From positions 1-49,608 of the IMG/VR virus record IMGVR_UViG_3300047564_004084: DNA of 49,608 nucleotides; one strand, given 5' to 3'. How positions within the stretch are numbered: the first letter of the stretch is position 1; the number at the start of each line of letters is the position of its first letter. Below the pieces are notes generated by a model, which did not search any database, had not been told where the DNA came from, and was given only the letters and a program-made list of their open reading frames with translations. Origin of the DNA: a virus. Positions 275 through 33,044 of the stretch are shown piece after piece. Both the position numbers and the translations under genes were made by a program.

Positions 275-3200
275 ATGCCACAAGAACTAGACTTAAATAT
301 CTCTCCATATTTTGACGATTTCAAAAGAGACAATAATTATCATAAAGTTTTATTCAAACCTGGATATCCAGTTCAAGCTAGAGAATTAACTACTTTGCAG
401 TCTATGCTGCAAAGTCAGATTGAAGAGTTTGGAAATCATTTCTTCAAGGAAGGGTCATTAGTTACTGGTGGCGGAGCGACTTATATTCAAGATTTACCTT
501 GCGTATTACTTCAGGCAAGTTATCTTGGAACTCCCATTGATTCCTACATGTATTCTTTATTGAATAAAACAATACGAGGAGCTAAGAGTGGAATAAGAGC
601 AGTTGTAATGGGAATACTTCCCGAAGATGATTCAACTAGGAATATTAATACACTATACATATCATTTTTAAGTTCTGATAGCAGATCATCATCTTTCACT
701 GGTTTTGCTCCAAATGAAGCAATTATTGTGGAAGAACTAGTTGATACATCAGACACTACTGATGATTCAACAGCAGAAAATGAGGATGATGGAATTGATC
801 CTGATTTGGAAAATCCAATAGTATTTCAACCTGGATCTAGAGTTGCTCTAACTGTTGAAGGAAATCCAAATGGAATTGGATCTGGTGTTAAAATTGAAGA
901 TGGCGTATATTATCTTAGAGGGCATTTTGTTAGTGTAGATAGTGAATTCTTACTTCTAGATCAATATACAAATCAACCATCATATAAAATTGGTTTTGAA
1001 ATAAGTGAAGAAATTGTAACATATAATGATGACGATAACCTAGTAGACAACGCCCAAGGATTTACAAATTTTTCTGCACCTGGAGCAGATAGATTTTCAA
1101 TAACGGCAGAACTAATAAAATTACCACTTAATTCCACCAATTTGGAAAAATTTGTCCAAATAATGGAAGTTAGGAATGGAGTGCTAATAACTCAGAATAG
1201 AGATACAGAATATACCAAAATTGCAGATGAACTAGCCAGAAGAACCTATGACCAATCAGGTGATTTTTATGTAAAAGCACCTTCATTATTTGTGAGACAT
1301 TCCTTAAATAATAGAAAAGGTAATGATGGTTTATATTTTGAAACAGAATCCACTGATATGGGTTTCAAACCATCAGATAATAAGGGAATATACAAAATAT
1401 CTCCGTTAAAAGCTTATATAAAGGGATATGAAGTTGATGTAATTTCTCCGGTTTTATTAGATTTTGAAAAACCAAGAACCATTAGAACATTAAACAATCA
1501 AGGTGTAATTAATTACACTGGGCCAACATTTACTGTAAATAGAGTATATGGTAGTCCAACATTAGGTTTATCAACATCGTTCTTCTTATCTCTTAGAGAT
1601 GAAAGAGTGGGAGCATCTCAGTCAACTGCTCCAGGTAAAGAAATTGGTATATGTAGAATATATGATTATGCATTAGAATCCGGAAGTTACAATGCGGCAT
1701 TCCCAGACTTAAATCAATGGGATGTATCATTATATGACATCCATCCATATGTTGATATTACAATTAATGAGCCATTATCTTTACAAGTACCAACTCATAT
1801 CAAAGGAAAAGCAAGTGGGGCAACCGCTTTCCTAAGATATTCAGTAACAAATTCAGGTATTATCACTGCTTACAATGTAAGGGGTAAATTTTCTATTGGA
1901 GAAAAATTGATATATGATGGTATAGAGGATACTAGAGTAACAACTTCGACAAAACAGTATTCTGTATCTGATGTAAAATCCATATATGCACTAAATGATA
2001 ATGGATATCCATTTACAGCTGATGTATTGCAGTCTCCTGCACTAAATGTTGGGCAAGTAACGATTACTCCATCTAGTGGAGGTATATCCACAGTAAGATC
2101 TTCTAATTATTCATTTACTAATAATGTTTTTGAAGGAAATATTGTTGCCTATTCAAATCCATCCTATCAGGATATAACATACTCTAAAGTAGTAAGTGTT
2201 TCTACAAATACAATAACAATTAGTTCGGTTCAAACTGTTACTGGACTATGCAATGGAATTCTACCCGCATCACAAATAACACCATCAGATTTTAGAGTAC
2301 TAAAATCTTCTCTGCAAAATTCTCTCGATAGCACTTTATACACAACATTACCAAAGAGATTCGTTTCAAATGTAGATGTTCTCGATGGTTCTCTGACTGT
2401 AAAGAAATCTTTTGACGTTTCTATAACAAATAATCAAACTAATACAATTTCAGCTGGAAGTAATGGAATTTTTCTTCCTTTTGATGAAGAAAGATATGTT
2501 TTAACAAGAGATGATGGAACTATAGAACCACTTAGTTCAGATAAGTTTGCATTTTCTGATGGAAATAGGGAAGTAACAATTGTTGGATTAGGTACGAATG
2601 TTACGGGAACCTTATTAGCAACATTAACGAAAACAAAGGTAAAATCTAAGAAAAAAATAAAAAATAAAATAAAATCTATTATAATAGATAAATCAAAGTA
2701 TTCCTATTCTGGTATAGGAACAACTACAAGTAATGATGGACTTCAGTTTGGTAATTTCCCATATGGATCTAGAGTTCAGGATGAGGAAATATCATTAAAT
2801 TGGCCAGATGTTACAAAAATATACGGTGTGTATCAATCGGATGATACTGCTGAACCAGATATTCGTAAAATGGTTATAACAAACCTTAGTGGAAATACAG
2901 CAAAAACAACCGATCTTCTTATTGGAGAAGAATTTTTAGGAAGCACAAGTGGTGCTTTAGCAATATATGCTGAAAGGATATCAGATTCCAGAATAGGATT
3001 TATATATTTAAATACAATATCCTTTACTGAAGGGGAAAGAGTAACCTTTAAGAATAGCAATGTTCAGGGAACAATTGTAACACTAACAGGTTCTGATAAT
3101 GATATAACTTCCGATTTTACTTTAGATTCGGGTTATAGATCAACACTATATGATTATTCGAGATTAGTTAGAAAACCAAATGCAAAAGAGCCAACTAGAA

Positions 3201-6200
3201 AATTAAAAATATATTTTGAGCACGCAACTTATAATACATCTGATGATGGTGATATTACAACAGTAAATTCTTATTCTGATTATGATTATTGTGATATACC
3301 ATCAACTAATGGTATCCGACATTCTGATATAATCGATATCAGGCCAAGAGTTAATGAGTACATAGTACAGGAAAACGCATTCTCTTCATTTGAATTTTTT
3401 GGAAGAAGGATTGATGCTGATTATAACAATTCAGCAACAAATCCGATAGCTACATCTGATGAATCTATTGTTCTAAATTATTCATATTATCTTCCAAGAA
3501 TAGATAGAATATTTTTAGATAGAACCGGACAATTTCATTTAGTTCAGGGTGAAGCATCCGAAAATCCAAGAATTCCTTTAGGAAAACCAGAATCACTGGA
3601 AATTGCTACAATATCATTACCAGCATATCTCTGCGACGTATCTCAAGCTAATATTAATTTAGCTGAATATAAGAGATATCAAATGAAAGATATCCGTGAC
3701 TTAGAGAATAGAATAAAAAACTTAGAGTTTTATACATCACTTTCACTATTAGAAAGCGATACTGCTAATTTGTTTATTGGAGATGCAAATGGATTAAATC
3801 GCTTTAAGTCTGGTTTCTTTGTTGATGACTTTTCATCAGCTGAACCACAATTAAAAGTGACTGATGTAAAAAATAGTATAGATACAAAACTTGGAGAGTT
3901 AAGACCAGCACCATTCACTACCCAGATAGATTTAGTTCTTGGTACTGAAAATACACTAGGAATTAGCACTTCTCCAGCACAAACTTCAGATTTACGTTTT
4001 GATCAAAATCTAATTGGTAGAGGTGTTAAGAGAACTGGACAATTAGTAACTTTGCAGTATGAAGAAGTTGCTTATATAACTCAAGGATATGCAAGTAGAG
4101 TTGCTCCAGTAACATCATTTAGAAATGCGTATTATGCGGGAAGTATACAATTAGTTCCATCTTCTGATGTTTGGGCAGATCAAGTTAAATTAACTCCTAG
4201 AGTAATTGATGTTCAAGGAAAATATACAAAAACTCAGTCTCAGCTAACAGCGTCACAATTCAATCAACAAACTGGATTTGGTCCCGTGACTTGGGGAGCA
4301 TGGGAGACTGTATGGACTGGATCCACAAAAATTCCAGCTGGTTCAAGAACAGTAGTTAATGGTTATGATTTAATCAGAGAAGATTTAGCAGTAACACAAA
4401 AGACCGGAACTTCAACAAAAACTGGAGTTGCATATAAAGAAAGAGAGAGCTTTGAAAGTATCAAAGTAGGAGAAGTGACTGTAAGTTCAGATCTTATCCC
4501 AGCAATGAGATCAAGAAATATAGAATTTACTGCTAAGAGATTAAAACCACTTACTGAAGTATATGCATTTTTTGATAAGGTAGATGTTAATCGTTACATT
4601 GTACCAAAGTTATTAGAAATTCAAATGGTTAGTGGAGTGTTCCAAGTTGGAGAAAATGTTAAGACATTAAACACATCACCAATTCAAAGTGGAAATGGTA
4701 TTACTCCGCTTGAAGATAAATTTATTAGATTTAGAGTTGCAGCAGCTGCACACAAATATGGTCCATATAATGTCCCGGAAGATATTTTTATAACAAATCC
4801 ATATAATACATCTACACTGGTTCCTGATACATATTCTTCATCTTCAACAATATTAAACGTAGATACATTCAGTTTATCAAATAAAACTCAAGGTGATTAT
4901 TATGGATATGTTACTGTTGGAATGACTTTAGTAGGAGAAACTAGTAAAGCGGTAGCTACTGTTTCTAGAATTAGAATGGTTACTGATAGAAACGGTACTC
5001 TTATTGGTTCATTCTTTATTCCAAATCCAAACGTACCATCTAATCCAACTTTCGAAACTGGAACAAAACTTTTTAGAATAACTAGTCAAGAGAAAAATGT
5101 TACTGTTATTGGAGTTCCAGTAACTGGTGCAGAAGAAAAATTCTATGCTGAAGGAACAGTAAAAGTAGTTCAAGAAAGTGTTTTGTCTGTTAGAAATGTA
5201 CAGACTGAAACCGCAACAATTGTTGATACTAGAACTGATGTTTCTGTTGGACCACCAGAGGTTGTAGCAAGTACAGTTGTTGGAAACATAAAACCACCAC
5301 CTCCTCAAGTCGTTCCAATTTTTATACCAGCTCCTTATGATGGTGGTGAAGTTGATCCTGATGAAATTGATGAAATTATTAATACTATTATTAATGATCC
5401 AGAACCTGCACCACCACCTGCAGTTTATCCAACTAGAGAACCATCACCATCGGATCCGACACCTCGCGGGTCAACCGCAACTCCAGTGAGTCCTAATGAT
5501 CCAAAGAGAGATCCACCACCGCCATGTCCAGATCCAAATTGCCTAATTCTACTTGCTGACGGCACACAGAAGAAGGCAGGAGAACTTCAAATTGGTGATT
5601 TTGTAAAAACTTACCATGAAAATACTTTTGAATATGGTGATTATCAGGTTACTTATGTTGAAATAGTGAATAATGTTACCAAATTTAAGTTGAAGTTTGA
5701 AACTAGTGAAATTATTTGCTCAGATTCTCACAAATTCTATGTTGATGGATTGTGGAAAGAATGCAAAAACATGCAAATTGGAGATGTAGTTTCTGAACAA
5801 AAACTATTAGAAATTGAACAAGTTGATGATGGTGATGTAGTTAAGATTACAGTTGATGATGCACACACTTATATTTGTGAAGGTTTACTCTCTCACAACA
5901 AAACTCCTGTACAAGAAACTCCAAAGACATTTAAAGTTAAGAACGTTACAAGAAGTAGAGGAGGAGTTACTGCAGTTACTTATGTTCCATTTACAACCAA
6001 GAATGGTAAAACGAGAGAATATAATTTTAGACAAATTAAAAAGAGAGAAGGTGCAGCGGCAGCAAGAGAGGCATACAAAGATGCAGGAGTTCCAATTCCA
6101 CCAAAAAATGCTCCTGGAAGGGGCAAACCAGCAAAACCAACTGGTGGAGATAAGAAAACTTCAAATGTTGTAACAGTTCAAGATAAAAATGGTAATCTTA

Positions 6201-6736
6201 GAATTAAAGATTCATCAGTTCCAGGTGGAAAGGTTCTCAAGACTTTAAAACCAGGAACACCTAAATTTGATAAATTTGACGTTAATGACGATGGAAAAAT
6301 TTCAGGTAAAAAGGAAAATTCTCTTGTAATTACACAAACACCAAAAGCTGCTAAGAGAGTTACTGATAGAGGTGAAGTTAAGTTTGAACAAAGAGGATTC
6401 CCAGTTGTCCAACCAAGACCTCAACCAAGACCAGAACCAAGACCATCACCAAGACCATCCCCACCACCAGCACCACGTCCATCACCAAGACCACAACCAG
6501 CACCAGCGCCACGTCCATCACCACGTCCAGCGCCTGCGCCAGCGCCACGTCCATCACCACGTCCAGCGCCTGCGCCAGCGCCACGTCCATCACCACGTCC
6601 ATCACCACGTCCATCGCCCGCACCTTCTGGTGGAATGGGTATGAGTGATATCAACCTCAAGAGTAACATTCAACCCATCGACAATGCACTAAATAGATTG
6701 TTTAGTATTAATTTAAATAATGGGGTTTTATCTTGA
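275..6736 (+). CDS. Giant DUF4815-type virion structural protein with internal Hint domain
   Basis: This 2,153-residue protein begins MPQELDLNISPYFDDF...HKVLFKPGYPVQARELT, the hallmark of the DUF4815 structural proteins of marine T4-like phages, found beside gp8 where T4 has gp9/gp10. It is probably an outer baseplate or fibre-base component of the virion. Order along the chain: DUF4815 region (about 1-1100), mixed beta-rich body, proline-rich linker (about 1690-1755), Hint domain (Cys1756-Asn1875), a basic region, an EF-hand-like loop at D2002 (D-V-N-D-D-G-K-I; position 12 is Lys, so incomplete), a second proline/arginine-rich repeat (about 2050-2115), then the start of an S74 chaperone domain with S2124 and K2129. 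The S74 domain breaks off at a TGA; its remainder continues in the +1 frame at 6735-6977. There is no strong ribosome site before ATG 275. DUF4815 membership is confident; the exact position in the virion is inferred. Confidence 0.85.
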   Translation: MPQELDLNISPYFDDFKRDNNYHKVLFKPGYPVQARELTTLQSMLQSQIEEFGNHFFKEGSLVTGGGATYIQDLPCVLLQASYLGTPIDSYMYSLLNKTIRGAKSGIRAVVMGILPEDDSTRNINTLYISFLSSDSRSSSFTGFAPNEAIIVEELVDTSDTTDDSTAENEDDGIDPDLENPIVFQPGSRVALTVEGNPNGIGSGVKIEDGVYYLRGHFVSVDSEFLLLDQYTNQPSYKIGFEISEEIVTYNDDDNLVDNAQGFTNFSAPGADRFSITAELIKLPLNSTNLEKFVQIMEVRNGVLITQNRDTEYTKIADELARRTYDQSGDFYVKAPSLFVRHSLNNRKGNDGLYFETESTDMGFKPSDNKGIYKISPLKAYIKGYEVDVISPVLLDFEKPRTIRTLNNQGVINYTGPTFTVNRVYGSPTLGLSTSFFLSLRDERVGASQSTAPGKEIGICRIYDYALESGSYNAAFPDLNQWDVSLYDIHPYVDITINEPLSLQVPTHIKGKASGATAFLRYSVTNSGIITAYNVRGKFSIGEKLIYDGIEDTRVTTSTKQYSVSDVKSIYALNDNGYPFTADVLQSPALNVGQVTITPSSGGISTVRSSNYSFTNNVFEGNIVAYSNPSYQDITYSKVVSVSTNTITISSVQTVTGLCNGILPASQITPSDFRVLKSSLQNSLDSTLYTTLPKRFVSNVDVLDGSLTVKKSFDVSITNNQTNTISAGSNGIFLPFDEERYVLTRDDGTIEPLSSDKFAFSDGNREVTIVGLGTNVTGTLLATLTKTKVKSKKKIKNKIKSIIIDKSKYSYSGIGTTTSNDGLQFGNFPYGSRVQDEEISLNWPDVTKIYGVYQSDDTAEPDIRKMVITNLSGNTAKTTDLLIGEEFLGSTSGALAIYAERISDSRIGFIYLNTISFTEGERVTFKNSNVQGTIVTLTGSDNDITSDFTLDSGYRSTLYDYSRLVRKPNAKEPTRKLKIYFEHATYNTSDDGDITTVNSYSDYDYCDIPSTNGIRHSDIIDIRPRVNEYIVQENAFSSFEFFGRRIDADYNNSATNPIATSDESIVLNYSYYLPRIDRIFLDRTGQFHLVQGEASENPRIPLGKPESLEIATISLPAYLCDVSQANINLAEYKRYQMKDIRDLENRIKNLEFYTSLSLLESDTANLFIGDANGLNRFKSGFFVDDFSSAEPQLKVTDVKNSIDTKLGELRPAPFTTQIDLVLGTENTLGISTSPAQTSDLRFDQNLIGRGVKRTGQLVTLQYEEVAYITQGYASRVAPVTSFRNAYYAGSIQLVPSSDVWADQVKLTPRVIDVQGKYTKTQSQLTASQFNQQTGFGPVTWGAWETVWTGSTKIPAGSRTVVNGYDLIREDLAVTQKTGTSTKTGVAYKERESFESIKVGEVTVSSDLIPAMRSRNIEFTAKRLKPLTEVYAFFDKVDVNRYIVPKLLEIQMVSGVFQVGENVKTLNTSPIQSGNGITPLEDKFIRFRVAAAAHKYGPYNVPEDIFITNPYNTSTLVPDTYSSSSTILNVDTFSLSNKTQGDYYGYVTVGMTLVGETSKAVATVSRIRMVTDRNGTLIGSFFIPNPNVPSNPTFETGTKLFRITSQEKNVTVIGVPVTGAEEKFYAEGTVKVVQESVLSVRNVQTETATIVDTRTDVSVGPPEVVASTVVGNIKPPPPQVVPIFIPAPYDGGEVDPDEIDEIINTIINDPEPAPPPAVYPTREPSPSDPTPRGSTATPVSPNDPKRDPPPPCPDPNCLILLADGTQKKAGELQIGDFVKTYHENTFEYGDYQVTYVEIVNNVTKFKLKFETSEIICSDSHKFYVDGLWKECKNMQIGDVVSEQKLLEIEQVDDGDVVKITVDDAHTYICEGLLSHNKTPVQETPKTFKVKNVTRSRGGVTAVTYVPFTTKNGKTREYNFRQIKKREGAAAAREAYKDAGVPIPPKNAPGRGKPAKPTGGDKKTSNVVTVQDKNGNLRIKDSSVPGGKVLKTLKPGTPKFDKFDVNDDGKISGKKENSLVITQTPKAAKRVTDRGEVKFEQRGFPVVQPRPQPRPEPRPSPRPSPPPAPRPSPRPQPAPAPRPSPRPAPAPAPRPSPRPAPAPAPRPSPRPSPRPSPAPSGGMGMSDINLKSNIQPIDNALNRLFSINLNNGVLS
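5540..5899 (+). other. Hint (intein-like, BIL-type) domain within the giant structural protein
   Basis: Codons 1756-1875 encode a 120-residue Hint module. Block A is C-LILLADGTQKKAGELQIGD, opening with Cys1756. Block B is IICSDSHKFY with the conserved His. Blocks F/G are ITVDDAHTYICEGLLSHN, ending in the His-Asn pair at 1874-1875. There is no room for a homing endonuclease, so this is a mini-Hint. The residue after Asn is Lys1876, not Cys/Ser/Thr, so standard protein splicing is not expected. Bacterial intein-like (BIL) domains with variable +1 residues can cleave, or sometimes splice. Proline-rich linkers flank the N-terminal side. Confidence 0.87.
6509..6616 (+). repeat. 36-bp GC-rich coding tandem repeat (Pro/Arg/Ala/Ser-rich)
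   Basis: Two identical 36-bp units (6509-6544 and 6545-6580) are followed by a partial third (6581-6616) built from the same CCACGTCCATCA blocks. They encode Pro-Arg-Pro-Ser and Pro-Ala-Pro-Ala strings in the C-terminal part of the giant structural protein. Similar but less regular proline coding extends upstream to about 6415. The block is far richer in G and C than the surrounding AT-rich DNA. It lies about 75 bases upstream of the point where the S74 domain loses its frame. Confidence 0.9.
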
Positions 6737-6977
6737 TAAAATTGCAAAATTAAATGGGAAATATTATGAATGGAACGATAAAATGAAAGATATAACAGGA
6801 GTAACTGGAAACGCATATGGTGTGATCGCTCAGGAAGTTCAAAAAGAATTTCCTGAGATGGTTGAAGAACAAGAAAATGGTTATTTGGCGGTTGATTATA
6901 AACAGTTAATTCCTGTTATGATTGAAGCTATAAAAGAATTGAAACAAGAAGTGGATTACTTGAAAACTAAAAAATGA
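6720..6977 (+). CDS. Out-of-frame remainder of the S74 chaperone domain
   Basis: The 85-residue reading frame contains most of an S74 (endosialidase-type) intramolecular chaperone domain: LDKIAKLNGKYYEWND, then GVIAQEVQKEFPEMV, then LAVDYKQLIPVMIEAIKEL and a short coiled coil. The start of this domain (SDINLKSNIQPIDNAL) is encoded at the end of the preceding gene in a different frame. ATG 6720 lies 14 bases before the TGA that ends that gene and has no Shine-Dalgarno sequence. It could be reached by reinitiation, by +1 frameshifting (for example at GGGG, 6722-6725, or TCT-TGA, 6731-6736), or not at all. In S74 proteins the domain trimerises the fibre and then cuts itself off. I read this as a frame-damaged 3' end rather than an independent gene, but a separately made chaperone is possible. 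Confidence 0.6.
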   Translation: MGFYLDKIAKLNGKYYEWNDKMKDITGVTGNAYGVIAQEVQKEFPEMVEEQENGYLAVDYKQLIPVMIEAIKELKQEVDYLKTKK

Positions 6978-6996
6978 GAGTAGTGAGGTTGTTTAT

Positions 6997-7407
6997 ATGA
7001 GAACGGGTTTAGAATCTTCAAGATCTTTGTACTTAGACAATCTTTTATTTGCTAATAAATTAATAATTAAAAGATCTGAAATTCATAGGTGGGGAGTTTT
7101 TGCTAGAGAACCGATAAAAAAGTATGAAATTATAGAAGAATTTCCATACTTTAAAGTTCCTATGGATGAAATTACCAACACTCAAATATGTTTAGATTAC
7201 AGTTATAAATTTGACGACGATTATCATGTTATCGGTATGGGATTTTGTGGAATGTACAATCACAGCTTTAATCCAAATGTTGAATATGAAATTGATAAGG
7301 TAAATGAGGTTATGAGGCATTATGCTATTCATGATATTAATATTGATAATGAGCTAACCTTAAACTATGGGGAGGAAAATGTATCCCACTTTGAGAATCT
7401 CCGATAA
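6997..7407 (+). CDS. SET-domain protein (putative protein-lysine methyltransferase)
   Basis: This 136-residue protein is essentially a lone SET domain. An N-terminal substrate/cofactor segment RWGVFAREPIKKYEIIEE corresponds to the 'G-GVFA---I--GE-I' motif. GMYNHSFNPNVEY (N88-H89 and N92-N94) matches the S-adenosylmethionine-binding NHS-NPN motif. DNELTLNYGEE supplies the conserved Tyr124. There is no cysteine-rich post-SET region. SET enzymes methylate lysines in proteins; the target here is unknown and could be a virion or host protein. The start is supported by GAGG at 6985-6988, eight bases upstream of the ATG. The gene sits between two virion structural genes. A late-promoter-like box overlaps its stop codon. 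Confidence 0.82.
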   Translation: MRTGLESSRSLYLDNLLFANKLIIKRSEIHRWGVFAREPIKKYEIIEEFPYFKVPMDEITNTQICLDYSYKFDDDYHVIGMGFCGMYNHSFNPNVEYEIDKVNEVMRHYAIHDINIDNELTLNYGEENVSHFENLR

Positions 7408-7410
7408 ATA
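7403..7410 (+). promoter_or_regulatory. T4-type late promoter box (GATAAATA), overlapping the SET gene stop
   Basis: GATAAATA differs by one base from the T4 late -10 consensus TATAAATA. The TAA stop of the SET gene (7405-7407) lies inside it. It faces the 836-residue structural gene starting at 7482. Confidence 0.55.
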
Positions 7411-7429
7411 AACAATAAAAGAATTGAAA

Positions 7430-7437
7430 AATAAATA
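7430..7437 (+). promoter_or_regulatory. T4-type late promoter box (AATAAATA)
   Basis: A second late-type box lies 44 bases upstream of ATG 7482, within the 74-base gap after the SET gene. Together with the box at 7403 it suggests late transcription of the 836-residue structural gene and the neck genes behind it. Confidence 0.55.
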
Positions 7438-7481
7438 ATAAGATAAGATTTAGTTTTCTTGAGAAAGGGTAATTACTAGAA

Positions 7482-9992
7482 ATGGCAACAAAAATACAAG
7501 ATCCATTAGCGCAATCATTTTATGTTGAAAACCCGGCAGGTATTTTCGTAACATCTGTAGATATATTCTTTTATTCTATAGATAAACAAGTTCCCGTTAC
7601 GGTTCAACTTCGTCCTATGAAGCTTGGATTTCCAACCCCAGAAATTTACCCATTCAGCGAAGTTGTTTTAGAACCAACTAAATGTCTTCCATCTCCAGAT
7701 GCGTCCGCACCAACAAGAGTTAATTTTCCATCTCCAGTATATCTTGAGGGAGATAAGTTTCATGCTTTGGTTTTAACTTCAAATTCTAGCGAATATACTG
7801 TTTGGATATCACATATTGGAGAACCAGATGTTACCTTTATCAATCAACAAGAATCTAAACAGGTCATAATAAGTACTCAACCAAGTTCTGGTTCTCTATT
7901 TTTATCACAAAATGGTCAGACTTGGACGGCAAATCAATATGAAGATTTAAAGTTTAATTTATACAGAGCTAATTTTACCACAAATGATGGTAATGTTAAT
8001 TTTTATAATCCAGAGTTGGCGCTTGGGAATAATCAAATAGCGCAATTATCAAAAAATTCTTTAGAGACTACTTCCAAGAAATTAAGATTAAATTTAAATA
8101 GGATTGTAACTGATCCTGATATCAAGGTTGGAAATACAATATTACAGCAAGATTCCGATGCAACAGCAAATTTAGTTGGATCAGCTGGTGCATCTTCTGG
8201 AAATTTAACTATTGTTAATTCGGGTATTGGGTATACACCATCTTTGGGCGGATTAACGTACTTTGATGTTCCATTAGTAACAGAAACTGGGAATGGAAAA
8301 AATGCAACCGCAAACATAACTATTCAAGAAGGTGTTGCTGTTGGAGCGACTATTGTTAATGGTGGGTCTGGATATACTGTTGGAGATGTAGTAACAGTAA
8401 ATGCTTTGGGAAGCACTATCTTAGGAAGAAATCTGAGATTATCCGTATCTAATATATCAGGAATTAATCAGTTAATAGTGGATCAGGTACAAGGAACATT
8501 TAGAGTTGGTGCAGGAAATACCTTACAGTATGTAAATAACTCAGGTATTACTACTACTATAAATTATAACTCCGGATCTGACGTTAGAGTATCTGATATT
8601 GATATTGAATCCGATGGACTTCATATAAAAGTAAATCATCCAAATCATGGAATGCACGCTCCAGAAAATTTGGTGAGAATATCCGATGTAACTTCAGATT
8701 TACCCTTCGCCAGACTTGTTAACGGATATGCTAGTGATACAGTACAAAATATACCTTTAACAGGAATTGCAACAGATCCAGATACAGGATTTAGTATATT
8801 TTCATCATTCGAAAATATTGGAGTCAGTTCAACAAATCCAGGATATATTAAAATAGGTGATGAAATCTTATCATATGAAGGTGTTTCGGGAAATACATTA
8901 ACAGGCATCATAAGAGGTATTGATGGAACACCAGCATATCAATATCCAGCTGGTTCTGTTGTCTATAAGTACGAATTGAATGGAATATCACTTCGAAGAA
9001 TTAACAAAGTTCATACTTTGCAAGATGCTACTGTTACCAATCCTATTGACTTGGATTACTATCATGTAAGAATTGATACAAATACATCTGGACTTGATAG
9101 AAATAATTCTCCACTTACATTACCAGAATTACATTTTAAACAAACAAAGTCTTGTGGCGGTCCTTTCATAAAAGCAACTCAAAATATCAATTTTGAAATT
9201 ATTAGGCCGTTGGTTCAAACCATGACTTTGAATGGAACGTCAATCAGTGCAGCACTTAGAACATATTCTGGTAGAAGTGTTGGTGGATCTGAAATTTCCT
9301 TTGTTGATCAAGGATTTGATCAAATTTCATTGACTGATACAAATTATCTAAAGTCACCTAGAATTGTAGCTTCTAGAATAAACGAACTTGATAGACTTCC
9401 AGAGGATGGTATTGAGGGAAATAAATCATTAAATATGTCCTTAAATTTATCATCGACTAGTAATTTTGTTTCTCCAGTAATTGACCTCGATAGAGTTTCA
9501 GCTATTTTGACTACTAATAGAATTAATAGACCTATTGAAAATTATGCAACAGATGAAAGAACTGCATCACTAAAAGATGATCCACATTCATTTGTTTATG
9601 CTACAAAACCAATAACTCTAGAATCCCCAGCTACCTCAATTAAAATTATTGTTTCTGCATATGTGAACATAGATAGCGATCTAAGAGCTTTCTACGGAAT
9701 ATCAAATAATGCTGGAGAGCAGTTTATCTATTATCCATTCCCAGGATACTCAAATATTGCACAAAATGGTAGTGTTATCAATGATTCATTGAGTAATGGA
9801 AATTCTGATACTTTGGTTCCAAAAACTGATGTGTTTGGATTCCTAAGTAATGAACTTGCATTTAGAGATTATGAATTTACTATTAATAATTTACCATCAT
9901 TTAGATCTTTTGGTATAAAATTAACTGGATCATCCAGAAATCAAACATACCCAATAAGAATAAGAGATCTTAGAGTTATTGCACTTGCATAA
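7482..9992 (+). CDS. Virion structural protein, baseplate-associated (836 residues)
   Basis: The protein opens MATKIQDPLAQSFYV followed by VTSVDIFFYS and VPVTVQLRP, an N-terminal signature shared by large structural proteins of marine T4-like phages in the gp8-gp13 interval. By position it probably forms part of the baseplate periphery, where T4 has gp10/gp11. At about residues 240-310 it carries two 'GxGYT' beta modules (VNSGIGYTP, VNGGSGYTV). At about 455-500 it has a module reading IKIGDEILSYEGV ... IIRGIDGTPA that recurs in the C-terminus of gp15 here. The C-terminal third reads as a beta-rich domain (for example SIKIIVSAYVNIDSDLRAFY). Two late-type boxes precede it and GAAAGGG lies 13 bases before the ATG. 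The gene ends five bases before the next ATG. No enzymatic motif is visible. Confidence 0.8.
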   Translation: MATKIQDPLAQSFYVENPAGIFVTSVDIFFYSIDKQVPVTVQLRPMKLGFPTPEIYPFSEVVLEPTKCLPSPDASAPTRVNFPSPVYLEGDKFHALVLTSNSSEYTVWISHIGEPDVTFINQQESKQVIISTQPSSGSLFLSQNGQTWTANQYEDLKFNLYRANFTTNDGNVNFYNPELALGNNQIAQLSKNSLETTSKKLRLNLNRIVTDPDIKVGNTILQQDSDATANLVGSAGASSGNLTIVNSGIGYTPSLGGLTYFDVPLVTETGNGKNATANITIQEGVAVGATIVNGGSGYTVGDVVTVNALGSTILGRNLRLSVSNISGINQLIVDQVQGTFRVGAGNTLQYVNNSGITTTINYNSGSDVRVSDIDIESDGLHIKVNHPNHGMHAPENLVRISDVTSDLPFARLVNGYASDTVQNIPLTGIATDPDTGFSIFSSFENIGVSSTNPGYIKIGDEILSYEGVSGNTLTGIIRGIDGTPAYQYPAGSVVYKYELNGISLRRINKVHTLQDATVTNPIDLDYYHVRIDTNTSGLDRNNSPLTLPELHFKQTKSCGGPFIKATQNINFEIIRPLVQTMTLNGTSISAALRTYSGRSVGGSEISFVDQGFDQISLTDTNYLKSPRIVASRINELDRLPEDGIEGNKSLNMSLNLSSTSNFVSPVIDLDRVSAILTTNRINRPIENYATDERTASLKDDPHSFVYATKPITLESPATSIKIIVSAYVNIDSDLRAFYGISNNAGEQFIYYPFPGYSNIAQNGSVINDSLSNGNSDTLVPKTDVFGFLSNELAFRDYEFTINNLPSFRSFGIKLTGSSRNQTYPIRIRDLRVIALA

Positions 9993-20233: not shown

Positions 20234-22123
20234 ATGACATTAAAAAACTACACGTTAAAAGTAAAATCACCAGAATATTGGGATGAGATACATAACACAT
20301 TATGTGGTATTTCATCGTGTGAACATATTCCCAACAGAGAAATTATATGTGTAGATGATAAAAATCATAGTCCAACTAGAGGAACCTTTTCCTTACATAA
20401 GTATGAAGCTGATTCAATATCCAAGCACCCATATATAGATTGGATTGAACTATCTCCAACTGATCATAGAGATGCATATCCCGATCCACAACCAGCGACT
20501 CCTAGATTTAAAAAAGATACTAAAATCTATAGAGATTTAACCACTGGTGGTGTTGGATCTGGACAGACAGAACTTAATAGAACAAACTGGGCAATAAAGA
20601 GGATTGGATTGAAGGAAAATATAGAATTTTGGACTAGCGATGATATAACTGCAAAATATGGAGACGTTAATTATTCATTAACAGGCAAAAATGTTGATAT
20701 TATTATCCATGATTCCGGAGTTCTTCAATATCACCCAGAATTTTTAGATTCAAATGGAAAGTCTAGAGTTAGAGATGTTGTTTTAGACGGTCCATATTAT
20801 ATTGATCCAGATTATTTTATTACCAATAATTTAACTTATATAAAATCAGATGGTAGAACTGGAATAACTACGGCATCTGCACTTAGTTGGTGGAGCACTT
20901 CTGGAAATAGATCTCCACAATTTTCATCATTAGGAACATTTTCTATTTCAGCATCATATACTGAAAATAGTTCCATGGGGACAGGTTTGAATGGTTCCAA
21001 TAATTTAATCAGTGGACATGGAACTGCATGTGCTGCATTATCTGCTGGAAAAAATTTTGGGTTAGCATTTGAAGCAAATATTTGGAATATGCCTGCAATT
21101 TCCGATAACGTTGGTATGGGAATTGAGCAGAGTTATGATTTAATGAAGATCTTTCACACATATAAACCAATTAATCAAACTACTGGTATAAAAAATCCAA
21201 CTGTTATAAATGGAAGTTGGGGTTATCAAGCTGCATTTTCTTCAGGTACATCAGTAACATTTAAATTTAGAAATACAACAGGAATTTTTACTGGAAATTC
21301 ATCAACTGTTAATCAGGTCACTGCGATGAAAAATGGATTGAATAACCAAGTTAGTGGTGCATTTAAATCTTGGTCAACATCATCAAGATCAAATTCTACT
21401 GATGAGGCTGGTAATGAATTAATGCAATCCGGAGTAGTATACGTTGCAGCAGCTGGTAATAATAATCAAAGACTGGGTATGGGATCAGATGATCCAGATA
21501 GACTTAACTATATGAGAGATTCTTGGTTCGGTACTACTGACCCAAGAGCTGAATTTGCATCAAATACTGTTCCATGTAATCATAGGGATTGGATGAATCC
21601 CCAAGGAATAGGATTTAATTCTACAAATGATTATCATCCAGTAATTTGTGTCGGTGCAATGGATGATACTATAGTTAGTGGTATAGAATTAAAAGCAAGT
21701 TATTCTAATAACGGACCAGGAATTGATGTTTGGTCTCCAGCAGATGAAACTTTAACGGCAGGAACAAATGGTATATCTGGATATACTAATTATACTAGAG
21801 TAGATGATAATAGATTTTTTGATACAAATTTTAATGGTACTAGCGCAGCTGCCCCAGTAATTTCTGGTTTGGTAGCATTATACTTGCAAACAAAACCATC
21901 CGCATCTTCAATTGAAGTAAAGAATTGGTTAAAAAAATATGGATCAAAAGTAATTACTGCATATAGAGATGATTATTCTGATGATACCACAACAGAATAT
22001 TGGACTGGTAGTTTTAATATGAGAGGTGCAGAAAAAAGAATATCTTATAATCCATATGATAATAATACATCACCATCCATCAGTGGAGTTTTTATGTCTG
22101 GTGTTGTTTTCACTCAATCATAA
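20234..22123 (+). CDS. Subtilisin-like (S8 family) serine protease in the fibre cluster
   Basis: The catalytic triad of subtilases is complete: Asp160 in VDIIIHDSGVLQYHPEF, His262 in SGHGTACAALSAG and Ser537 in NGTSAAAPVISGLVALYL. The oxyanion Asn409 stands in YVAAAGNNNQ. The first roughly 75 residues (YTLKVKSPEYWDEIHNTL ... YIDWIELSP) look like an inhibitor-I9-type prodomain, suggesting self-activation. No signal peptide or membrane segment is visible. At 629 residues it is larger than simple subtilisins because of long insertions between His and Ser. The start codon is one base after the stop of the preceding fibre gene. Likely roles are maturation of virion fibres or a virion-borne protease acting at the host surface; both are inference. 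Confidence 0.88.
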   Translation: MTLKNYTLKVKSPEYWDEIHNTLCGISSCEHIPNREIICVDDKNHSPTRGTFSLHKYEADSISKHPYIDWIELSPTDHRDAYPDPQPATPRFKKDTKIYRDLTTGGVGSGQTELNRTNWAIKRIGLKENIEFWTSDDITAKYGDVNYSLTGKNVDIIIHDSGVLQYHPEFLDSNGKSRVRDVVLDGPYYIDPDYFITNNLTYIKSDGRTGITTASALSWWSTSGNRSPQFSSLGTFSISASYTENSSMGTGLNGSNNLISGHGTACAALSAGKNFGLAFEANIWNMPAISDNVGMGIEQSYDLMKIFHTYKPINQTTGIKNPTVINGSWGYQAAFSSGTSVTFKFRNTTGIFTGNSSTVNQVTAMKNGLNNQVSGAFKSWSTSSRSNSTDEAGNELMQSGVVYVAAAGNNNQRLGMGSDDPDRLNYMRDSWFGTTDPRAEFASNTVPCNHRDWMNPQGIGFNSTNDYHPVICVGAMDDTIVSGIELKASYSNNGPGIDVWSPADETLTAGTNGISGYTNYTRVDDNRFFDTNFNGTSAAAPVISGLVALYLQTKPSASSIEVKNWLKKYGSKVITAYRDDYSDDTTTEYWTGSFNMRGAEKRISYNPYDNNTSPSISGVFMSGVVFTQS

Positions 22124-30896: not shown

Positions 30897-33044
30897 ATGA
30901 GTAACTACGGTAGATTTTTATCAGGAAAGCAGAGAGACCTAGGTATTGGTATAAGCAATTACAGTGAAGGTAAGACTGTACTAAATGTTATTGGTAATGT
31001 AGCCATTGGTGGAAGCATTGGAATTGGAACTACTAGTAGATTTGATTTGACCGCCGATGTTGATACTAGAACTATACGAATTAGGAGAGAACTTTATGAC
31101 TCCCAAGGGAATTCTGGGGAGAATAACCAACTTTTAACTTCTGTTGGCGGATCTTCGGTTCAATGGACAACTCTTGAGGATATTTTATCTTTCCAAGGAA
31201 TTACTGTTCAAGATGAGGGCACAATTGTAGGTGCTGCGGGAAGCATTAAGACAGTTAATTTTGTTGGTACTGGAGTAACTGCAGCTGCATCTGGAAATAT
31301 TGCTACTATAACTGTTGACCAAGTAACTGCAGCAGGTTTTGATGGACAAATTCAATATAATGATAATGGAGACTTTGGTGGAGCTCAAACATTTTATTAT
31401 AATGACTCTACACTGAGAGTTGGTATTGGAACATCATCAATGAATAGAACTCTCGATATCGTAGGAGATGTTGGGATATCTAGTTATCTTTATTCTCAAA
31501 GATCATATGTTAGTTTAGACACTATTATTCCCATTGCCCCAGAAGAACTAGCATCAAAATCATATGTAGATAATTTTACTGTTGCTGGTCTAACAGTTCA
31601 GAAAGCTGTATCTGCTGCATCAACAGTATCAATAAATGCGTACTATAATAACGTGTCAGCATCTCCAAGCGGTGTTGGAGCAAAGTTATGGGGTGTTAAT
31701 GTTGGTATAACATCTATCGATACTTATTTCCCAATTCTTGGGGATCGTATTCTAATCAAAGATCAGGGTGGACCTCTTGGATTTGGAAATACCTTTGAAA
31801 ATGGTTACTATACAGTAACTAGAGTTGGTACTGTAAGTACTTCGTTTGAATATACAAGAGCAGTTGACTTCGACGAACCTGAAGAAATTACTGCTGGTGC
31901 GTTCTCGTTCGTTATTGGCGGTGAAGTCAATGCTGGTGGTGGTTTCGTTCTTATCACAAAAGGAACTGTTTCTATCGGTGTATCTGCAATCGAATTCACA
32001 CAATTCAGTAGTCCTGGAGAAATTATTGCAGGTGATGGTTTAGTAAAAACCGGAAACGTTATCGATGCAGTAACTGCTAGTTCTTCCAGAATCGTAATGA
32101 ATCCTGATAGCATTGATTTAGCCACAGTAGCTACGTCAAGAAGCAATCTGACATCTGGTACAGGATCATTCATTAGTGGATTAAGCGTTGATGGATATGG
32201 ACGAGTAAGTGGAGTTATAACAAGTAATACTCATACACTAGCAACATCTTCTGTAAAGGGAATTGCATCTTTTAATACTCCAGAATTTACTGTTGCATCA
32301 GGAGCAGTAGGTTTAGCAAGTACTTCTGCGGGTGGGGCAGCAGTTTTATTTGTTGACGGCACACCAAATCAAATTGATGTTACTAGAGATGGTGGTAGAG
32401 AAATTGTTGGTTTGACTAATAATGTCACAGTACAAGGTAACTTAACCGTCATTGGAACTATAAGTGGAAATGGTACTGGACTAACAGGATTGCAGGCAGG
32501 GGTTGGTGTTGCTACAGCAGGGGTCTATGTTGGATCTGGAGCAACTGTACTCAATTTTACAGGAGCTGGTGTAAGTAGTGTAACTTTAGTTGGTACAACT
32601 GCTACAATTAATATTCCTGGTGGTAGAGATATTGATACTATTGGTAACGCTAACCAAGTTCTTTATAAGAACAGTTTGAACAAAGCAGTTGGTTCAGCAA
32701 ACCTAACTTTCAATGGAACTAACTTGGTTTGTGGAGGAACAGTTACTGCGAACTCAGATGAATCTCTAAAAGAAAATATTAAAACAATAGACGGTGCTTT
32801 AGAAAAAGTACAAAATCTTCGTGGAGTTGAATTTGATTATAGGAGTGATAAGACACATTCTATTGGATTAATCGCACAAGAGGTTGAAAAAGTTCTTCCA
32901 GATCTTGTCCACGAAAACGATGGAGTTAAGTCTGTAGCATATCAAAATATAGTTTCGGTATTAATCGAAGCTATTAAAGAACAGCAAGGTCAAATTGATG
33001 ATTTAAAACTACAAATTAAATCAATAAGAGATTTAAATATTTGA
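30897..33044 (+). CDS. Tail fibre protein with intact C-terminal S74 chaperone/self-cleaving domain
   Basis: The 715-residue fibre starts MSNYGRFLSGKQRDLGIG. It contains two copies of the 'I-V-DEG--VG------NFVG-GVTA--SG--ATI' module (about 98-140 and 535-585). A well-known fibre domain follows (LASKSYVDNFTVAGLTVQK ... GDRILIKDQGG ... FENGYYTVTRVG, about 220-380). It ends in a complete S74 domain: NSDESLKENIKTIDGALEKV with Ser620 and Lys625 forming the Ser-Lys dyad, then IGLIAQEVEKVLPDLV and SVLIEAIKEQQGQIDDL. In this family the domain assists trimerisation and then cuts just before the Ser, so roughly residues 1-619 should remain in the fibre. It serves as an in-frame reference for the broken S74 domain at 6644-6977. 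AAGG before the ATG is the ribosome site. Confidence 0.87.
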   Translation: MSNYGRFLSGKQRDLGIGISNYSEGKTVLNVIGNVAIGGSIGIGTTSRFDLTADVDTRTIRIRRELYDSQGNSGENNQLLTSVGGSSVQWTTLEDILSFQGITVQDEGTIVGAAGSIKTVNFVGTGVTAAASGNIATITVDQVTAAGFDGQIQYNDNGDFGGAQTFYYNDSTLRVGIGTSSMNRTLDIVGDVGISSYLYSQRSYVSLDTIIPIAPEELASKSYVDNFTVAGLTVQKAVSAASTVSINAYYNNVSASPSGVGAKLWGVNVGITSIDTYFPILGDRILIKDQGGPLGFGNTFENGYYTVTRVGTVSTSFEYTRAVDFDEPEEITAGAFSFVIGGEVNAGGGFVLITKGTVSIGVSAIEFTQFSSPGEIIAGDGLVKTGNVIDAVTASSSRIVMNPDSIDLATVATSRSNLTSGTGSFISGLSVDGYGRVSGVITSNTHTLATSSVKGIASFNTPEFTVASGAVGLASTSAGGAAVLFVDGTPNQIDVTRDGGREIVGLTNNVTVQGNLTVIGTISGNGTGLTGLQAGVGVATAGVYVGSGATVLNFTGAGVSSVTLVGTTATINIPGGRDIDTIGNANQVLYKNSLNKAVGSANLTFNGTNLVCGGTVTANSDESLKENIKTIDGALEKVQNLRGVEFDYRSDKTHSIGLIAQEVEKVLPDLVHENDGVKSVAYQNIVSVLIEAIKEQQGQIDDLKLQIKSIRDLNI
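32754..33041 (+). other. S74 intramolecular chaperone / autocleavage domain (intact)
   Basis: Codons 620-715 hold the complete domain: Ser620, Lys625, the GLIAQEVEKVLPDLV core and a C-terminal coiled coil. Expected cleavage falls between Asn619 and Ser620, by analogy with endosialidase-type fibres. Confidence 0.85.

Follow-up and report, generated by a model that had tools for sequence, protein, structure and literature searches.

The window, by which we mean the whole 49,608-nucleotide stretch of viral DNA analysed (IMG/VR record IMGVR_UViG_3300047564_004084), is filled with structural genes of a T4-like phage, as documented by Portal_T4, Gp23, T4-type terminase and tail sheath. ORF1 (275..6736, + strand) encodes the N-terminal part of a giant DUF4815/VrlC-like tail protein; its Pfam match to DUF4815 has an E-value of 8.4e-56, and residues 1-1669 match VrlC of cyanophage S-SM2 at 45%. 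The protein ends ...GMGM-SDINLKSNIQPIDNALNRLFSINLNNGVLS, followed by a TGA stop codon at 6734-6736, and this C-terminal end is the first part of a Peptidase_S74 domain (S74-N; 6644..6733, + strand), with Ser2124 encoded at 6644-6646 and Lys2129 at 6659-6661. The last 36 residues match positions 1-25 of PF13884 (Peptidase_S74) with 22.4 bits, a score barely higher than the curated cut-off of 22 bits. The remainder of the domain (S74-C) is provided, in another frame, by ORF2 (6720..6977, + strand), which starts with the ATG at 6720 and would direct synthesis of a separate small chaperone protein of 85 amino acids. ORF2 matches positions 17-57 of PF13884 with 38.1 bits, its only Pfam match at E 0.001, and the two parts together span nearly the whole 58-position profile, overlapping at positions 17-25. 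The intact S74 domain of the tail-fibre gene at 30897-33044 matches positions 1-58 with 60.7 bits. The original prediction, based on the sequence alone, had the giant protein starting an S74 domain (S2124/K2129) and ending at the TGA at 6734, the rest of the domain continuing in the other frame, and an intact S74 domain at 32754, and these assignments hold.

Downstream of ORF2, a SET-domain gene (6997..7407, + strand; PF00856, 4.4e-12, lysine methyltransferase-type) precedes the gene that we designate the C-part (7482..9992, + strand), a separate gene whose product corresponds to the last third of the giant protein of cyanophages. The SET gene occupies this gap only in the window and in relatives L001-L013, and is missing from L014-L030. 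A candidate late promoter of the C-part gene, AATAAATA, is located at 7430..7437 (+ strand), and a similar motif precedes the C-part in the other loci compared. The giant protein also contains a Hint/intein-like domain, encoded at 5546-5887 (ORF1 residues 1758-1871, CLILLADG... to ...EGLLSHN-K), with weak matches only, to the N- and C-terminal regions of inteins and to PT-HINT (23 bits, which is under the cut-off). HN is followed there by Lys, not by Cys, Ser or Thr, a pattern closer to that of bacterial intein-like domains than to that of normal inteins, and the domain is shared with L025/L026 (47%), where it is also positioned upstream of a split S74 domain. Among the structural genes of the window, the protein encoded at 20234-22123 has a subtilase (Peptidase_S8) domain (6.1e-18).

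ORF2 alone is predicted to take the known S74 chaperone fold. Its model has a pLDDT of 88 and is most similar in the PDB to 7dc3, the MyRF ICA domain (TM 0.75), with weaker similarity to 3gw6 and 3gud, all S74-type or intramolecular chaperones. The helix at the tail of ORF1 resembles the ORF2 helix in 11 of 11 loci compared, with a mean BLOSUM62 score of 16.8 over 9 positions versus -5.2 for shuffles, as anticipated in the remark that the extra sequence looks like a diverged second copy of LDKIAKLNG. In L024, for example, the repeated helix reads LNRLLNIKI in the first half and LEKLLNING in the second. The stretch that follows the Lys in S74-N is shorter than in any solved S74 domain.

Relatives were identified in IMG/VR with three queries: ORF2 itself, an alignment of its relatives, and the C-part. 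The same split is present at 49 loci (the window counted), nearly all on IMG/VR contigs and all in uncultured phages, with 35 distinct junctions; at each locus SD..LK.N closes the upstream ORF and the domain resumes in a second ORF. Near-identical copies of the junction are present in L001 and L002, two contigs from different datasets. An S74 domain that adjoins the C-part is split at all 46 places scored (these include the window and a few duplicate fetches), and there the S74 family trait of a whole domain on one polypeptide with its client is absent. No relative scored has a fused S74 domain at the giant-protein locus that could represent the ancestor; the suggested check, whether relatives have NAL and DKI contiguous, was negative at this locus. 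The catalytic Ser and Lys are retained in 35 of 35 distinct junctions. The start codon of ORF2 is ATG or GTG in every junction, its frame is offset from that of ORF1 by +1 in some relatives and by +2 in others, and the ORF1 stop falls anywhere between 11 bases upstream and 14 bases downstream of the chosen ORF2 start, with stop/start overlaps (ATGA, TTGATG, TGATG, TAATG) frequent among the relatives. Our counts treat related sequences as separate. By simple estimates, ORF2 is under strong purifying selection (pN 0.091, pS 0.591, median dN/dS 0.086) and dN/dS is about 0.15 for S74-N and about 0.6 for the weakly constrained ORF1 codons that follow NAL. Given that the split is conserved, that the offsets vary and that ORF2 is under purifying selection, error is excluded, frameshifting does not fit and a stable, conserved two-gene arrangement is well supported. 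In cultured phages, ORF2 matches are at most 49% identical, and the nearest of those retrieved encode an intact S74 domain; the small gene that follows VrlC in cultured cyanophages has no resemblance to S74. A literature search for a split S74 domain found none, but many subscription papers were outside that search, so an earlier description is possible.

The split domain is also found outside the giant-protein setting. It follows a 483-amino-acid protein with a Hint-like region in L025/L026, and a 235-amino-acid Gly-rich protein in L183 (5691-6661), where the two ORFs overlap at ATGA and there is no TAAATA before ORF2; the neighbours of the split S74 in L016 differ from those at the giant-protein locus. 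These settings suggest that the split S74 moves as a module. The L183 split S74 is directly 3′ of a gene that itself ends in an intact S74 domain.

The giant gene itself has a discernible history. VrlC of cultured cyanophages is encoded by one unbroken gene of about 2,500 codons without an S74 domain, whereas in the window (275-9992) the VrlC/DUF4815 gene has been divided, near residue 1650, into separate genes. Residues 7-836 of the C-part match the end of VrlC from S-SM2 at 47% and from S-SCSM1 at 50%, and the C-part aligns with positions 1421-2055 of the 2056 in phrog_358. Since the unbroken genes all fall on one side of a supported branch in the C-part tree (support 95/92; 92% of bootstrap trees), the giant gene was probably broken only once into N-part and C-part. 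The presence of the break helix in both halves indicates that the split probably arose through partial duplication, and to this extent the imprecise recombination originally invoked for this genome, unsupported as such given the 35 junctions, may survive as an old event of duplication or recombination at the origin of the arrangement. The break place is a hot spot for inserted sequence; six unbroken giant genes (L105, L107, L113, L121, L124 and L172) have 550-1,100 extra bases there.

T4-type late promoters are gp55-dependent, with transcription starting about 6 bases downstream of the promoter motif. Their sequence is TATAAATA in T4 and NATAAATA in cyanomyoviruses (PMC2984593). A candidate T4-type late promoter, ACTAAATA, is present within S74-N at 6688..6695 (+ strand), 24 bases before the ORF2 start. 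The first half contains CTAAATA (30 junctions), TATAAATA (3) or AATAAATA (1) in 34 of the 35 junctions, 19-40 bases before the ORF2 start; CTAAATA differs from TATAAATA at one position. From the end of CTAAATA to the ORF2 start there are 24 or 25 bases in 24 of 30 cases, a result favoured by our choice, where several starts were possible, of the ATG nearest to that spacing. The Leu-Asn of NAL-N is encoded by CTA-AAT, followed by A, in nearly all junctions, and CTA is present at the scored Leu codon in 30 of 35, versus 12% of Leu codons in these genes by a simple estimate; L025 likewise has CTA AAT A at its real site. The Leu codon is instead TTA in L014-L018 and L022, which have TATAAATA or AATAAATA within the Ile-Asn codons that lie a few codons before it; L021 has CTAAATA four codons downstream of the usual place and still upstream of ORF2. 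The motif so occupies at least three codon registers, and because the register shifts between clades the constraint is, as judged from these alignments, on position in the DNA and not on the Leu-Asn codons. L183 lacks the motif despite having the split.

TAAATA is absent from the equivalent 90 bases of all 83 distinct fused S74 domains, and is present 14-45 bases upstream of 14 of the 32 other genes in the window (random placement gave a mean of 1.0 and a maximum of 6 in 5,000 draws). For many of the phage's other genes, the motif shares bases with the TAA that ends the preceding gene; in S74-N it is read in another frame, as CTA AAT A. Over the whole window CTAAATA is not commoner than expected by chance, and a DNA-pattern scan with the motif and its flanks retrieved, besides these same phages, sequences that encode unrelated proteins. 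With the motif position maintained, TAAATA common before window genes and none in fused S74 domains, the motif in S74-N is most likely a late promoter for ORF2. Regardless of position, TAAATA occurs 52 times on the + strand of the window and 14 times on the - strand, where, within ORFs, it is depleted relative to synonymous shuffles (14 versus 30 expected), perhaps reflecting selection against antisense late promoters. No Shine-Dalgarno-like 4-mer precedes ORF2 in any of the 35 junctions, versus 14 of 32 other window genes, and it is for this reason that translational coupling to ORF1 probably contributes to ORF2 expression.

S74 domains form trimers and cleave themselves before the Ser. We consider it likely that the two genes of the split domain are expressed separately and that a functional S74 is reconstituted in trans from S74-N and S74-C, with promoter activity, separate translation, assembly and cleavage all inferred. 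A cyanophage-type giant tail-protein gene would have been broken, probably once, into N-part and C-part. The N-part carries S74-N, with the catalytic Ser and Lys and the first helix. S74-C, with most of the chaperone fold, would be made as a separate small protein. Its expression would probably draw on a T4-type late promoter lying within the S74-N coding sequence and, in addition, on translational coupling, proposed because no more than 14 bases part the ORF1 stop from the ORF2 start. S74-N and S74-C would most likely come together in trans as a trimeric chaperone at the end of the giant protein, assist its folding and then cut before Ser2124, shedding the C-terminal peptide together with the small chaperone, with self-cleavage conditional on the second chain. 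Reconstitution in trans is proposed because the chain that has kept the catalytic residues stops about 25 residues beyond them. Two features argue against such assembly: the presence of the helix in both halves, which makes fitting both into one fold difficult, and the shortness of the stretch after the Lys in S74-N. That the nucleophile half resides on the tail protein, the folding half comes from a hidden promoter and maturation cleavage is licensed in trans is a more specific proposal, towards which we lean only slightly.

Of the alternatives to reconstitution in trans, the one that survives best, although we think it unlikely, is that the ORF2 product works in trans as an independent chaperone, or serves some other role, with S74-N a relic or docking tag and no reconstituted cleavage. 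Separate, intermolecular chaperones that resemble S74-type domains do exist downstream of fibre genes (V22 gp27 and A5 gp9), ORF2 alone has a confidently predicted fold, and the weak constraint after NAL could be expected of a relic or tag, but the catalytic pair and the low dN/dS of S74-N are not. In the loci read, moreover, neither S74-N nor S74-C occurs without the other, and S74-N was not seen in the N-part tails of six broken-gene relatives that lack S74-C. It is rather improbable that ORF2 is translated solely by coupling to ORF1, with CTAAATA kept for another reason such as a SET/C-part promoter or a protein constraint. The frequent ATGA, TGATG and TAATG overlaps and the missing Shine-Dalgarno-like sequence would accord with this, but the register changes speak against a protein constraint, the C-part has a TAAATA of its own upstream, and a position 24-25 bases before ORF2 is typical of the motif at other genes in the window (14-44 bases). 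Reinitiation at the ATG at 6720 to yield a trans-acting chaperone, one of the options listed originally, came closest to the evidence, but it overlooked both the late-promoter-like motif 24 bases upstream and the retention of the catalytic residues everywhere.

Programmed recoding, by +1 frameshifting or by a gene-60-like bypass from CTA 6689 to CTT 6732, to give a fused S74 is very improbable, even though the two halves complete one domain and Leu codons are present at both ends in the window. The 43 bases counted between these codons are correct for the window but are not a fixed insert, as the distance is 32-44 in relatives. A +1 frameshift is at odds with the two offsets, with an ORF1 stop codon that begins at least 4 bases before the chosen ORF2 start in 20 of 35 junctions, and with an ATG or GTG start for ORF2 in all of them. 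Bypass is rejected because of landing codons that vary (CTT, TTA, TTG, CTA, or GTA in L016), by the variable distances and by clades with the motif in other registers, one of which has TTA and not CTA as its take-off codon; nor is the predicted RNA fold at the junction unusual (z -1.1). Almost certainly, the gene was not broken in this genome by a recent imprecise recombination, nor is the split an artefact of sequencing or assembly: the frame change is near the GGGGTTTT run and the helix occurs twice, but 35 distinct junctions share the arrangement despite different sequences, with near-identical copies in L001 and L002 and purifying selection on ORF2, and a one-base error in GGGGTTTT, as once suggested, is rejected by the +1 and +2 offsets among relatives.

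S74 domains have been described as intramolecular, part of the chain that they fold, and a natural, conserved split departs from that. It suggests that in evolution the residues for cleavage came to be encoded apart from the body of the chaperone, and provides a ready system for testing how cleavage is triggered by assembly and whether the amount of chaperone is controlled independently. The locus also documents a promoter-like sequence that lies inside conserved coding sequence and in a register that differs from lineage to lineage, and the fission of a structural gene that remains whole in cultured relatives. An automated pipeline would probably label the split S74 a frameshifted or truncated gene.

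As in the T4 gene 60 bypass, a short out-of-frame stretch lies between two parts of a single domain, but here there are no matched take-off and landing codons and no stop directly after the take-off, and frame and length vary among relatives. T4-type late promoters share with the motif described here the TAAATA core, TATAAATA in one clade, and a location shortly upstream (19-43 bases) of a gene start; the differences are that the sequence here is mostly CTAAATA and lies in conserved coding sequence of the upstream gene. Alteromonas phages V22 and A5 have separate fibre chaperones, gp27 and gp9 (DUF4376), respectively, with folds reported to resemble intramolecular chaperones (PMC7289586, PMC10579305). 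The likeness, by description, is a small chaperone-like gene directly 3′ of a tail protein, but the tail protein here holds the catalytic part of the same domain, and the V22 and A5 fibres are not so described in the text consulted. The catalytic pair of T5 pb1, Ser1264/Lys1269 (PMC4690869), has the same Ser-Lys spacing of five as Ser2124/Lys2129. With the S74, or endosialidase-type, intramolecular chaperones in general (K1F endosialidase, 3gw6; T5 pb1; MYRF ICA, 7dc3), the locus shares PF13884 in both halves, a position at the C-terminus of a tail protein and an ORF2 model that matches 7dc3 and 3gw6; it differs from them in having two polypeptides with a repeated helix rather than one chain, and a promoter-like motif within the first half.
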